A stretch of 64,000 bases of DNA, taken from NCBI GenBank assembly GCA_014879845.1, contig JACSRI010000126.1, positions 1 through 64,000 on the forward strand, given 5' to 3'. This DNA comes from Opitutaceae bacterium (lineage in GTDB: Bacteria; Verrucomicrobiota; Verrucomicrobiia; Opitutales; Opitutaceae). The notes below the pieces were generated by a model that saw only the letters and a program-made list of their open reading frames with translations, made no database searches and had not been told where the DNA came from. Positions 41,220-45,853 of this stretch are shown piece after piece; position 1 is the stretch's first letter; the number at the start of each line of letters is the position of its first letter. A program made the position numbers and the translations under genes.

Positions 41220-43388
41220 TCAGTGCCCGAGGCGCGAGGTCATCGCGTAGACGATGAGCACGAGGAGCACCAGACCCAGGCCGAAGAACATGAAGCCCAT
41301 GGCCTTGGCGATGTTCTTGCGGCCCTCCCAGTCGTCGCCCTTCACCCGATGGGATTCGAGGCGGCCCTCGGCCACGAGACGGTCATACCAGCGCTTGCGT
41401 TCGTGGAGCAGCTCGGTCTTCGACATCTTCCCGGAGAAGATGACCGTATCCATCGGGAACTTCTCGATGCGGAAGTGGGTGTTGAAGAAGTGGAAGGTGA
41501 AGATGAAGCCCGCGGCGAGCAGCGCCTCGTCCGAGTGCACGACGAGCGCGATGTTGATCATCCAGCCCGGCATGAACTGGGAGAAGAAGATCGGGAACCA
41601 CATGATCAGGCCCGAGACGCCGATGGCGAAGATGCCCCAGAACACGGCGAGGTAGTCAAACTTCTCCCAGTAGGTCCAGCGGTCGAACTGCGGACGCGGC
41701 CCCTTGCCGAAGAACCACTTCTGGTGGGCGACGAAGTCGTGCCAGTCCTGCATCGAGGGCAGCATCGACTCGGGGCCGAACATCGCGCCGACGATGCGCT
41801 TGAGCGACACCTTGCCGGTCTGCGGATCGCGGATCGCGCGGCGATTGCGCCAGAGGCTGAGCGCGAGGTCGGAGAGGTGCAGGATGAAGTAGGCGAACGT
41901 GATGACCGCGCCGAAGTGGTGGAGCGAGCGCGCGACCTCCGCGCCGCCCAGGATATCGAACATCACCTTGGCCCAGTCCGTGTAGTAGAACTTCAGCGGC
42001 ATGCCGGTGATCACCAGCAGCAGGAAGCTCGTCACCACCATGAGGTGCAGCATCCGGTCAAACGGTGTGAAGCGCGTGTAGTTCTCGTCGTCGTCGTGCG
42101 CCGCCACCTTGGCCTCGCGGAACTTCTTCGAGTCGTGCAGGTAGAGGTAGATCGAGCGGAACAGCCAGAAGAGCGTGTGCACGCCGAAGAAGGCGAACAC
42201 GCCGATGAGCAGGCTGGTCATGAAGAGGAACACCTTGTTCAGCGCCGGGTAGTGCTCGGCGTCGAGCGGGTTGGCGTGCGGCTGGTATTGGGCGAAACCC
42301 TCGTTGGCGCCCGGGTGGCACTTCGCGCACGTGTTGACGATGTTCTGCGGCGCGAGGCGGGAGCGCAGGTCGGAGACCGGCAACACGTCGTGGTGCCCGT
42401 GGCAGTCGTAGCAGGCGGCGACATCGGAAGCGACGTTCGGCCGGCCCAGCGCCATGGCCTTGCCGTGGTAAGTGTCGCGGTAGTGGACGAGGCGGTCCTG
42501 ATGGCATTTGCCGCACGTCGCGTCGCTGCCGGCCTTGAAGTGGGCGTTGGTCGGTTTCTCGATCTCGTGCGCGGAGTGGCAGTCCGAGCAGACCGGGCCC
42601 TTGCCGTCACCCTGCTTGAGCAATTGGCCGTGCACGCTCTGTGCATAGACCTCCTCCACGCCGACGTGGCACTTACCGCAGGTGTCGGCGATCTTGGAGT
42701 GGTGCGTGTGCGAGCCGCGGTCGACCGAGCGTTTGATGTCGTGCACCCCGTGGCAGTCGTTGCAGGACGGGGCGACGATCAGGCCCATCTGCAGCAGCGC
42801 GCGGCCGTGAATGCTCTCCATGTAATGGTTCGCGGCCTGCGGGAACTTCATCCGGTACTCCTCGGTGATGCCCTCGTTGCTGTGGCACTGGGAGCAGGTT
42901 TTCGGCAGGTTCAGTTTGAAGACGGGCGAGTCGGCGTGCTTGACCGGGATGATCTCGTGCGAGCCGTGGCAGCTCGCGCAGGTCGCGGCGCTCGACGAGC
43001 CCATGGCGTGGGAGACGCCGTGGATGCTGTGGTTGTATTGGTCGACCGCACCTTCGTGGCAGGAGGCGCACTGGGCCGGCGGGAGCGGCGTGGCGTGGTC
43101 TGCGGACTTTATGCCGTCATGGCAGTCGATGCACGAGAGGCTCCCGTGCACCGACTTGGCGAAGGGCTCGGGGCGCACGCCGTCGTATTTGAGCTGGCCG
43201 GTGTCGGTCTTGACCGGCTCCGGGCTGGCGGTGTGGCACTCGAGGCAGGAGGCGTTGCCCAGCTCCTCGCTTGCAGTTGCGGCGATGGGTTGGCCGACGA
43301 CGAACGCGGCAAGGGCCGCGGCGAAAGTGGCTGCCCGGATGCGGGCACACAGGGCGACAAAACCGGGGGATAAGGAGAGAAGTGACAC
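41220..43388 (-). CDS. undecahaem cytochrome c fused to a cytochrome b561-like membrane domain
   Basis: A 722-residue protein with an N-terminal signal peptide (to about residue 38) and GTG start. Eleven CxxCH haem c sites lie in the first 380 residues (CLECH, CIDCH, two CASCH, CSQCH, CNDCH, CGKCH, CSDCH, CGKCH, CYDCH, CAKCH). The C-terminal half has about five helices with paired histidines (FDRMLHLMV, RSLHHFGAV, VVHSDEALL, FHFFNTHF) like the formate-dehydrogenase gamma/cytochrome b561 family, which binds two b haems. It should pass electrons between the quinone pool and periplasmic haems. There is no CxxCK, so it is not a NrfA-type nitrite reductase. It is divergent from a related 13-haem protein. 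Confidence 0.9.
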   Translation of the reverse strand: MSLLSLSPGFVALCARIRAATFAAALAAFVVGQPIAATASEELGNASCLECHTASPEPVKTDTGQLKYDGVRPEPFAKSVHGSLSCIDCHDGIKSADHATPLPPAQCASCHEGAVDQYNHSIHGVSHAMGSSSAATCASCHGSHEIIPVKHADSPVFKLNLPKTCSQCHSNEGITEEYRMKFPQAANHYMESIHGRALLQMGLIVAPSCNDCHGVHDIKRSVDRGSHTHHSKIADTCGKCHVGVEEVYAQSVHGQLLKQGDGKGPVCSDCHSAHEIEKPTNAHFKAGSDATCGKCHQDRLVHYRDTYHGKAMALGRPNVASDVAACYDCHGHHDVLPVSDLRSRLAPQNIVNTCAKCHPGANEGFAQYQPHANPLDAEHYPALNKVFLFMTSLLIGVFAFFGVHTLFWLFRSIYLYLHDSKKFREAKVAAHDDDENYTRFTPFDRMLHLMVVTSFLLLVITGMPLKFYYTDWAKVMFDILGGAEVARSLHHFGAVITFAYFILHLSDLALSLWRNRRAIRDPQTGKVSLKRIVGAMFGPESMLPSMQDWHDFVAHQKWFFGKGPRPQFDRWTYWEKFDYLAVFWGIFAIGVSGLIMWFPIFFSQFMPGWMINIALVVHSDEALLAAGFIFTFHFFNTHFRIEKFPMDTVIFSGKMSKTELLHERKRWYDRLVAEGRLESHRVKGDDWEGRKNIAKAMGFMFFGLGLVLLVLIVYAMTSRLGH

Positions 43389-43588
43389 GGCGAAGTCGGG
43401 CTGATCGGGCCACCGGATCCGCGCCGCTGGGGGTGTGGGGCGAACTTGGCGACTCTCTTGTTAGAATAGCTGATGTGATTCAGTATCGGCAGCAATTCAA
43501 AAATTCTAATATTGAGCCGTGTGATTTTTGCCGATTAGCTCAACACGATCTCCCGCAGAAGGCCCGCTTGTGCGGTGGATCGACTCCC
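43389..43588. promoter_or_regulatory. A+T-rich shared control region of the cytochrome pair
   Basis: This 200-base divergent gap contains an unusually A+T-rich core (about 43455-43545). Inside it ATCGGC (43485-43490) and GCCGAT (43530-43535) form a spaced inverted repeat. TAATAT at 43507 is a possible -10 element, but no confident -35 partner was found in either direction. An FNR-type TTGAT-N4-ATCAA site was looked for and not seen. Confidence 0.45.
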
Positions 43589-45853
43589 ATGCGTCCGTCC
43601 GCTCGTTCTGGTCGTTCACAACATGCTGGCACCACGTGTCCTGTTGCGCGGGTGCCTCTCGTGCGGCGACTTTTCGCCGTCGCCGCGGCAGTCGCGTTCT
43701 CCGCGGGCGGATTCCTTTGGGCGGCGGACGACGCGACATGTCTGGAGTGCCACAAGGACGCCACCTTGACGACGGAGCGGGACGGCAAAACGGTTTCGCT
43801 ACTGGTCGAACCTGGGCAGATCGCCGCCTCCAAGCACGCCGGCATGGCGTGCGCGGATTGCCACGAGAATTTCGACGCCGAGGCGATTCCGCACCGCGAG
43901 CCGATCGTGCCGGTCAACTGCCTGGGCTGCCACGAGGACTTGGGCAAGTCGCACGGCTTTCACCCGCGGATCGGAGCGCTCAAGGAGATGGGGGCGGCAC
44001 CCGACGTCTCGTGCGCGGGGTGCCACGGCGGCCACGATGTTGGCGGTGTGGCCGATGCGGGATTCCGTTTCGCGGCCGCGCGGCAGAGTGAATCGTGCGG
44101 TGCATGTCACACCGAGGTGCGCGAGTCCTTTGTCCGCTCCGCGCACGCTGGCGCGGCCGATGGTCCGTTTCCGACCTGCCTGAGTTGCCACACCTCCGAC
44201 GTGGTCGATGGCTCAAAGCCCAAGCTCGAGCTGAAGCAGGCGCAATCACGCTTGTGTCTGTCCTGTCACGTCGACTCGCCCGCGGCGGCCGGCCGGACCC
44301 GGCTTGGTGGCAAGTTCGTCGCCTCGTGGGGCGCCAGTGTGCACGGCCGGGCGCTCGACGCCGGCAAGGGCGACGCGGCCAACTGCGTGGACTGTCACGG
44401 CAGCCACGATATGGCGCGCGCCATGGTCGCCGACTCGCGCGTGAACAAGCTCCACATCCCGCAGACCTGCGAGCGCTGCCATGAGGACGTGTCCCGCGAG
44501 TACATGGGCGGCTCCCATGCCGCTGCCCTGCAGCGCGGTGAACTCGAGTCGCCGGTGTGCACGGACTGCCACGGCGAGCACGCCATCCTCGCTGCCTCCG
44601 ATCCGGACTCCCCGGTGGCGCCGCGCAACCTCTCGCAGCAGCTCTGCGGGGACTGCCACGGCTCGGTCAAGCTCTCGCGCAAGTACGGCATCTCCAGCGA
44701 TCGCTTCGAGACCTTTGCCGACAGCTTTCACGGCCTGGCCGTGCGAGGTGGTTCGATCGCTGTAGTCAACTGCGCGAGTTGTCACGGCGCGCACGGCGTG
44801 CTGCGCTCGTCCGACCCGGCCTCGCCCGTGCACAAGGCCAATCTCGTCAAGACCTGCGGCCAGTGCCACCCGGGTGCCAACGAGCAGTTCTCGCTCGGCA
44901 AGGTGCACGTCTCGCTCGCCCCCGGCGCGATCGGCGGGCCCGGTGGGACGGGCGAGGGGACCGACTGGCTCGTCCAGACCATCGCCACGATCTATGTGTG
45001 GGCGATCTTTTGCATCGTCGGCGGCATGTTCCTGCACAACGCCCTCGATTTCTTCAAGAAGGTGCGCCGCAAGGTGTATGGGCACGTGTTCGGCCTGGCC
45101 GATCCCCACGTGCCACACCGGCTCTACGTGCGCATGACCGTCAACGAGCGGCTGCAGCACGGCCTGCTCGCGCTGAGTTTCATCGTGCTGGTGGTGACGG
45201 GCTTCATGTTGCGGTTCCCCGAAGCCTGGTGGGTGGCCGGCCTGCGCAGCCTGAGCGACTCGTTCTTCGAGTTGCGCAGCCTCGTGCACCGCATCGCCGG
45301 CATCGTGATGATCGGCGCGGGCGTGTGGCACGGGATCTACATCACCGCCACGGCGCGCGGACGCGAACTCGTGCGCGAGCTCTGGCCGCGCTGGGGCGAC
45401 CTCGCCGACATGTGGGGCGTGCTCCGTTACAATCTTGGTCTCTCGAAGGAGAAGCCGCGCTTCGGGCGGTTCAGCTACATGGAGAAGGCCGAGTACTGGG
45501 CGCTCATGTGGGGCGCAGTGCTCATGACGGTGACCGGCGCGATGCTCTGGGCCGACGAGATGACCATGGGTGCCGTCGGCAAACTCGGTTTCGACATCGC
45601 GCGCGTCGTGCACTACTACGAGGCGATCCTCGCCACGCTCGCCATCGTGGTCTGGCACTTCTATTTCGTGATCTTCAACCCCGAGGTCTACCCGATGAAC
45701 CTCTCGTGGCTCACCGGGCGCCTTTCCGAGGAGGAGATGGCGGAGGAACACCCGCTCGAACTCGAGCGCATCAAGCGCGCCGAGGCCGCCGCAGGCTCTG
45801 CGCCCGAGTCGCGCGCCGACGAGCCGCACGAACCGAAGCCGCCTGCCTCCTGA
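43589..45853 (+). CDS. tridecahaem cytochrome c fused to a cytochrome b561-like membrane domain
   Basis: A 754-residue protein from the ATG at 43589. An in-frame GTG at 43652 would give a more ordinary signal peptide (PLVRRLFAVAAAVAFSAGG). Thirteen CxxCH sites span the first half, the last being CGQCHPGANE, which parallels CAKCHPGANE in the divergent neighbour. The C-terminal half has four to five helices with histidines suited to b haems (RLQHGLLAL, SLVHRIAGI, VVHYYEAIL, VVWHFYFVIFNP). It is a paralogue of the 11-haem protein with two extra haem sites. A quinol-linked periplasmic electron-transfer role is inferred. The acceptor or donor is unknown. Confidence 0.9.
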   Translation: MRPSARSGRSQHAGTTCPVARVPLVRRLFAVAAAVAFSAGGFLWAADDATCLECHKDATLTTERDGKTVSLLVEPGQIAASKHAGMACADCHENFDAEAIPHREPIVPVNCLGCHEDLGKSHGFHPRIGALKEMGAAPDVSCAGCHGGHDVGGVADAGFRFAAARQSESCGACHTEVRESFVRSAHAGAADGPFPTCLSCHTSDVVDGSKPKLELKQAQSRLCLSCHVDSPAAAGRTRLGGKFVASWGASVHGRALDAGKGDAANCVDCHGSHDMARAMVADSRVNKLHIPQTCERCHEDVSREYMGGSHAAALQRGELESPVCTDCHGEHAILAASDPDSPVAPRNLSQQLCGDCHGSVKLSRKYGISSDRFETFADSFHGLAVRGGSIAVVNCASCHGAHGVLRSSDPASPVHKANLVKTCGQCHPGANEQFSLGKVHVSLAPGAIGGPGGTGEGTDWLVQTIATIYVWAIFCIVGGMFLHNALDFFKKVRRKVYGHVFGLADPHVPHRLYVRMTVNERLQHGLLALSFIVLVVTGFMLRFPEAWWVAGLRSLSDSFFELRSLVHRIAGIVMIGAGVWHGIYITATARGRELVRELWPRWGDLADMWGVLRYNLGLSKEKPRFGRFSYMEKAEYWALMWGAVLMTVTGAMLWADEMTMGAVGKLGFDIARVVHYYEAILATLAIVVWHFYFVIFNPEVYPMNLSWLTGRLSEEEMAEEHPLELERIKRAEAAAGSAPESRADEPHEPKPPAS

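Follow-up and report, generated by a model that had tools for sequence, protein, structure and literature searches.

The first 64,000 nucleotides of contig JACSRI010000126.1 from an Opitutaceae bacterium (GCA_014879845.1; this whole stretch is called the window below) contain two neighbouring, divergently transcribed genes, A and B, whose products each join an exported multihaem cytochrome c domain to a b-type membrane domain. Why does one genome hold two such proteins, and which electrons would they carry? We think it likely that A and B are two stand-alone quinone:periplasmic cytochrome oxidoreductases of the CbcL type that serve one extracellular electron-transfer route as gates working in parallel. 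What carries this reading is the predicted fold of the two proteins, the numbers of their haem motifs and candidate ligands, the co-occurrence of their genes and their old paralogy.

A and B join multihaem cytochromes c to FdnI-like membrane domains

We counted 11 CxxCH haem-binding motifs in A and 13 in B, all in the N-terminal part of each protein; 500 composition-matched shuffled proteins gave a mean of 0.04 motifs and a maximum of one (A) or two (B). Each protein has a hydrophobic stretch near its N-terminus that resembles an export signal, and each matches both cytochrome c7/c3 repeats and Ni_hydr_CYTB (PF01292) in Pfam above the curated cut-off. These counts and matches agree with a sequence-only reading of the locus, which had described divergent, exported fusions of a multihaem and a b-type membrane domain with 11 and 13 motifs.

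We built AlphaFold2 models from alignments of 65 (A) and 34 (B) sequences. The A model has a mean predicted local distance difference test score (pLDDT) of 84.0, a predicted template modelling score (pTM) of 0.74 and six membrane helices, and the B model a mean pLDDT of 79.3, a pTM of 0.60 and five helices; the four to five helices first proposed hold for B but not for A. For both models, FdnI, the cytochrome b556 of formate dehydrogenase N, was the sole Foldseek match with E ≤0.001. Structural alignment of the b domains to FdnI (1kqf_C) gave Z 15.1 over 201 residues at 2.6 Å for A and Z 15.7 over 207 residues at 2.8 Å for B, with the next rows at 9.0 and 10.7, respectively. Single-sequence searches of the PDB returned weak matches only, FdnI being among those for A.

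Four membrane histidines in each protein, predicted to hold two b haems, are invariant across the aligned sequences, as are three extra ones in A and one in B (Table 1). The four in B align with four histidines of FdnI, and those of A align with those of B. The earlier description of the two as paralogous quinone-to-multihaem fusions is supported.

Among 40 A orthologues, 11 histidines of the haem domain outside the CxxCH motifs are invariant, against 11 haems; for B, with 13 haems, the 40 orthologues show 12 invariant histidines of this kind and one more that 37 of them keep. By count, there is therefore a candidate second histidine ligand for each c haem in both proteins, a pattern compatible with a wire that lacks a catalytic haem. 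Of 33 aligned B-type relatives, 15 have haems 3 and 4 of B, and each of the remaining 11 occurs in 32 or all 33. In structural comparisons, the multihaem parts scored Z 6.3-9.1 against hydroxylamine oxidoreductase and hydrazine dehydrogenase rows (best 9.0 for A and 9.1 for B) and 5.8 (A) and 8.5 (B) against MtrA.

A and B co-occur in Opitutaceae

Our sample comprised 150 genomes of the family Opitutaceae, including the source genome, drawn evenly from a larger group. A was found in 42 of them (58-74% identity to the window's A) and B in 41 (51-64% identity to the window's B). Both genes are present in 33 genomes, A alone in nine and B alone in eight, so the two do co-occur in relatives, a point on which the sequence-only reading had staked its proposal. 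In the source genome, A and B are the only two members of their protein family that we found; the other matching places are pieces of A.

In 25 of the 33 genomes with both genes, A and B lie on one contig at most ~8 kb apart. The layout is adjacent and divergent in nine genomes, adjacent and tandem in nine, adjacent and convergent in one, spaced in six and unlinked in eight, which in draft assemblies may mean no more than separate contigs. Tabulated in this way, the divergent arrangement is one of several, at nine of 33, and is not what is conserved about the pair.

Haem number is nearly fixed. Of the orthologues that could be aligned (40 of 42 for A and 40 of 41 for B, excluding partial copies and one copy missed by gene calling), all 40 A proteins have 11 haem motifs, and 38 B proteins have 13. 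The other two B copies (in G055 and G093) have 12, and their alignments to the query start at residues 78 and 76, beyond haem 1.

One way to account for the pair, proposed in the sequence-only reading, is that A and B run in opposite directions, one reducing quinone with electrons from periplasmic or extracellular donors and the other oxidising quinol. Strong divergence (31% identity) combined with retention of both in 33 of 150 genomes would suit such a division of labour, but either gene can occur alone, and, by the accessible text of PMC6295460, no distinguishing feature was found between quinol-oxidising and quinone-reducing members of the CbcL family. We give this explanation little credence. 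Since the two paralogues share a b-domain fold and have fixed but different haem numbers, direction is testable in them side by side.

Companion genes point to a probable extracellular electron-transfer route

In the neighbourhood of A or B in relatives, we repeatedly found genes for an ImcH-like protein, monohaem cytochromes c and a seven-haem DmsE/GSU2203-like (MtrA-like) cytochrome. Other recurrent neighbours encode a protein of ~700-740 amino acids (aa), a CcsB-type maturation protein, a HemN-like protein and an iron-sulphur (Fe-S)/NrfD/tetrahaem set. An ImcH-like gene is present in 64 of the 150 family genomes (66 initial matches less two weak, short ones) and an MtrA-like gene in 71. Among the 50 genomes that carry A or B, 49 also have an ImcH-like gene and 48 an MtrA-like gene.

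On contig C77 of the source genome (L136:7613-12688), consecutive genes on one strand encode the MtrA-like seven-haem cytochrome (298 aa), a putative porin (705 aa), a monohaem cytochrome c (118 aa) and an ImcH-like protein (523 aa). The ImcH-like product (L136:7613-9184) has three hydrophobic stretches, six CX2CH motifs and one CX3CH (at 167), and matches PF03264 above the cut-off. According to the accessible text of PMC6295460, ImcH homologues are marked by three N-terminal helices (with two exceptions in helix number), a NapC/NirT-like region, an atypical CX3CH and 5-9 CX2CH; the C77 protein shows these same helices, region and motifs. From its place and size, our guess is that the 705-aa protein is an outer-membrane conduit.

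We propose that the FdnI-like membrane domain of each protein, with its two b haems, would meet the (mena)quinone pool, where quinol would be oxidised or quinone reduced. Electrons would cross the two b haems and then 11 or 13 bis-histidine c haems, moving to or from periplasmic carriers that would pass them on to an outer-membrane conduit. A and B would do so together with the ImcH-type quinol oxidase, the seven-haem MtrA-like cytochrome and the putative porin encoded elsewhere in the genome. Support for such a route comes from several relatives in which A or B adjoins genes like those in the C77 row. By analogy with ImcH, CbcL and CbcBA of Geobacter, A and B are probably tuned to different redox potentials; the presence of two CbcL-type gates plus ImcH suggests a Geobacter-like potential tiering.

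The acceptors or donors might instead be periplasmic redox enzymes (for nitrite, N2O, tetrathionate or the like). The source genome does have further multihaem proteins, and the multihaem parts of A and B are similar to hydroxylamine oxidoreductase and hydrazine dehydrogenase, and also to MtrA, but these middling Z scores of ~6-9 may reflect common haem packing alone, and nearly all genomes bearing A or B carry MtrA-like and ImcH-like genes. We consider service to periplasmic enzymes unlikely.

Several points weigh against our proposal that A and B are parallel CbcL-type gates of an extracellular route. Their assignment to the CbcL family is by architecture, set against published descriptions. 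The A-B association (Fisher p 1.4e-17) was calculated with a test that ignores shared ancestry, and nine family genomes with A lack B, while eight with B lack A. Without A or B, 15 of the 150 genomes carry an ImcH-like gene and 23 an MtrA-like gene; the route is thus not dependent on the A-B pair. In the source genome, the C77 cluster is unlinked to A and B, and the other multihaem proteins encoded there are possible alternative partners. Finally, the 705-aa protein (L136:9638-11755), our candidate for an outer-membrane porin of the MtrB/PioB kind, had no Pfam match up to E 5 and, with an eight-row profile, no PDB match up to E 1.

Old clades and an eight-haem module

In a tree of b domains, 94 A-type and 49 B-type rows fell on separate sides with 100% support in the Shimodaira-Hasegawa-like approximate likelihood ratio test (SH-aLRT), and each side spans many phyla. 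Of 146 domains cut out, 143 were used after removal of two that had no match and one weak row; the tree came from a quick search and carried long-branch warnings. A split that runs across so many phyla indicates that the divergence of A and B is old. The last haem motif reads CxxCHPGANE in both proteins, which had been taken as a sign of duplication. CHPGANE occurs in only two of 40 A and three of 40 B orthologues, the window's own counted; with the motif rare in both sets, and A and B in separate, old, multi-phylum clades, we rejected a recent local duplication.

Most of the relatives of A that we retrieved have 19 haems. All 64 A-type relatives in alignment A3 have 19 haem columns in common, and the window's A corresponds to exactly the last 11. 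Another 13 of the 77 available were excluded, including truncated copies and an 18-motif protein. In the 19-haem relatives, haems 1-8 resemble the next eight. We built a module tree of 59 rows from the first 20 19-haem A3 proteins, three more such proteins from other relatives, the window's A, seven other 11-haem forms and five B outgroup rows. Each of the two repeats made a single group, as did the 11-haem forms, which lay on a long branch and fell outside both repeats (100/96 support). Constraining the 11-haem form to repeat 2 or to repeat 1 gave p-values of 0.0186 and 0.0175, respectively, in the approximately unbiased (AU) test. An earlier module tree (26 19-haem proteins, 71 rows) had been seen first, so these groups were not named blind.

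These comparisons provide moderate evidence that the window's A is the unduplicated form; the tree position and both AU tests disfavour a 19-haem ancestor that lost eight haems. The eight-haem module is an example of how giant haem chains possibly grow by whole units.

At a separate site, His 98 of A (codon 43095-43097) is invariant in the 40 family orthologues, and 63 of the 64 A-type relatives (19-23 haems) have Cys there. Judged by sequence, a His/Cys-ligated haem at this position is possible in those relatives.

A-type and B-type genes beyond the family

We searched 387 genomes of the phylum, scoring at most two candidates per genome so that the counts are lower bounds, and found matches in at least 27 genomes, at least 14 of them outside the family. 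Nine of these 14 have both types, in eight cases as an adjacent tandem pair with A first; the gap between the genes in L163 is 3 bp. Across the nine genomes, haem number is 9 or 11 in B and 11 or 19 in A. A plasmid search with A gave zero matches.

Scanning named genomes with an A-type profile yielded at least 558 stretches that encode a relative of A. We kept the best 80, those most like a 23-haem A-type protein, a set that may omit records near the source genome and whose counts are not frequencies for bacteria at large. These 80 loci come from 16 named phyla, with 14 loci unplaced; they include none from a record named Geobacter, Dechloromonas, Gallionella or Rhodoferax. Their fetched flanks contain a B-type gene in 38 cases, an ImcH-like gene in 29 and both in 21; in the subset of 34 loci of at least 19 kb, the numbers are 22, 13 and 11. 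Besides the unplaced ones, loci with A and B represent 10 named phyla, and loci with A, B and an ImcH-like gene represent eight.

Neighbourhoods of this kind could mean that A and B, often with ImcH, form one inner-membrane complex, for example a loop or a bifurcating quinone complex. The eight A-first tandem pairs of the phylum's other families, the 3-bp gap and the flank counts favour such an assembly; set against them, 17 of the 50 family genomes with A or B hold one gene only, order and strand vary, and eight of 33 pairs are unlinked. A single complex is, in our judgement, quite unlikely.

More tentatively than for the two parallel gates themselves, we suggest that A, B and ImcH may form a widely conserved inner-membrane module, in which three quinone gates would serve one periplasmic haem network at several potentials or in both directions. 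As part of the same tentative picture, 19-haem A would have arisen by a single eight-haem duplication, with the 11-haem protein as the surviving unduplicated state. If the three are a general bacterial set for covering a range of potentials, the trio would mark flexible extracellular respiration in poorly known phyla.

Features of the locus and of the source genome

Feature coordinates are collected in Table 1. For gene B, we chose the ATG at 43589 as the start; the list of open reading frames (ORFs) had a TTG at 43271.

Table 1. Coordinates in the window of genes A and B, their domains and the region between them.
Feature	Position	Strand	Details
Gene A, encoding a 722-aa fusion of an 11-haem cytochrome c and a six-helix, di-haem cytochrome b	41220..43388	-	GTG start
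Gene B, encoding a 754-aa fusion of a 13-haem cytochrome c and a five-helix, di-haem cytochrome b	43589..45853	+	ATG start
A, eight-haem module, haems 1-8, residues ~43-286	42531..43262	-	Unit doubled in 19-haem relatives
A, last three c haems	42276..42530	-	CxxCH at 292, 326, 354; conserved His 308, 333, 371
A, six-helix FdnI-like b domain, residues ~381-720	41229..42248	-	Membrane His 448, 490, 618, 633 and extra His 404, 504, 638, invariant in 65/65
B, periplasmic multihaem domain, 13 CxxCH	43727..44923	+	Motif count and alignment of B-type relatives
B, five-helix FdnI-like b domain	44963..45796	+	Membrane His 524, 567, 675, 690 and extra His 483, invariant in 34/34
A+T-richer region between the two starts, common to A and B	43389..43588		Base composition

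The 200-bp gap between the genes has a G+C content of 55.5%, compared with 68.6% window-wide, and falls to a minimum of 37% in a 60-base stretch at 43460. One A+T-richer gap shared by the two genes, as described earlier, is thus borne out. We scanned this gap with FNR-, CRP- and ArcA-like patterns and found no match with up to two mismatches; the same scan of eight other divergent pairs gave a single FNR-like site, in L104. An alignment of all nine divergent A-B gaps (the window's and the eight others) showed no common motif. By eye, the divergent gaps of L081, L084, L087, L091 and L104 contain two GGGCATNTTTTGC-like copies, some of them inexact, and no such element was seen by eye in the window's own gap. 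Between 33000 and 54000 of the window, no other called ORF contains a CxxCH motif, which, as regards cytochromes, supports the earlier statement that no accessory subunit lies alongside.

Three further loci of the source genome encode multihaem proteins. On C272 (L261:5723-8882), tetrahaem, Fe-S and NrfD genes are consecutive and resemble a quinol oxidase of the Cbc/Nrf kind. On C31 (L139:9686-11881), a 732-aa protein has a hydrophobic N-terminal part with a weak, sub-cut-off DUF4405 match, four CxxCH motifs and c7/c554 matches, and is perhaps another kind of b/c fusion. On C39 (L137:3-9120), a five-haem protein adjoins Fe-S- and NrfD-like proteins together with membrane and monohaem proteins, a locus that we take to look like alternative complex III.

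Comparison with known systems

The fusion of b and c domains in a single protein, which the sequence-only reading had called unusual, is a known design of metal-respiring bacteria. The accessible text of PMC6295460 describes 138 CbcL/MtoC/MtrH homologues from 15 phyla, four of them in Verrucomicrobia, with 3-23 haem motifs, which either oxidise quinol or reduce quinone in extracellular electron transfer; relatives of A alone numbered at least 558 in our scan. The membrane domain in that family is described as having mostly six helices, with four to six reported, and three conserved b-haem histidines are named. Like A and B, CbcL (GSU0274 of Geobacter sulfurreducens), MtoC and MtrH consist of an N-terminal multihaem part and a HydC/FdnI-like di-haem b domain, and their genes often lie near other c-cytochrome genes (PMC6295460, accessible text). 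A and B both fall within this description in CX2CH number, helix number and a HydC/FdnI-like b domain with conserved histidines. To that extent, a match to a characterised system, which the sequence-only reading had named as a challenge to its proposal, does exist in CbcL. CbcL has nine c haems according to the accessible part of PMC9129911, whereas A and B have 11 and 13 and are two old, co-occurring paralogues. In the literature searched, with supplementary tables and most subscription papers outside it, we found no description of the two-clade A-B pairing across several phyla or of the eight-haem module history.

Other systems share parts of A and B. FdnI offers the best solved fold for their b domains, with four aligning histidines; unlike A and B, it is a separate subunit without a multihaem domain. 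Hydroxylamine oxidoreductase, hydrazine dehydrogenase and MtrA align with the haem parts, but A and B show no sign of an open catalytic haem. ImcH, a NapC/NirT-type protein with its helices first and without a b domain, is not a member of the A/B family but a putative partner or parallel route. Geobacter has three different quinol oxidases for different redox potentials, with ImcH working above ~-0.1 V, CbcBA near -0.2 V and CbcL at low potential, as given in the accessible text of PMC12307469. In a Desulfobacterota bacterium on an electrode, ImcH and CbcL homologues were both expressed and have consecutive accession numbers (PMC12133095, accessible text), which hints that their genes are linked there.
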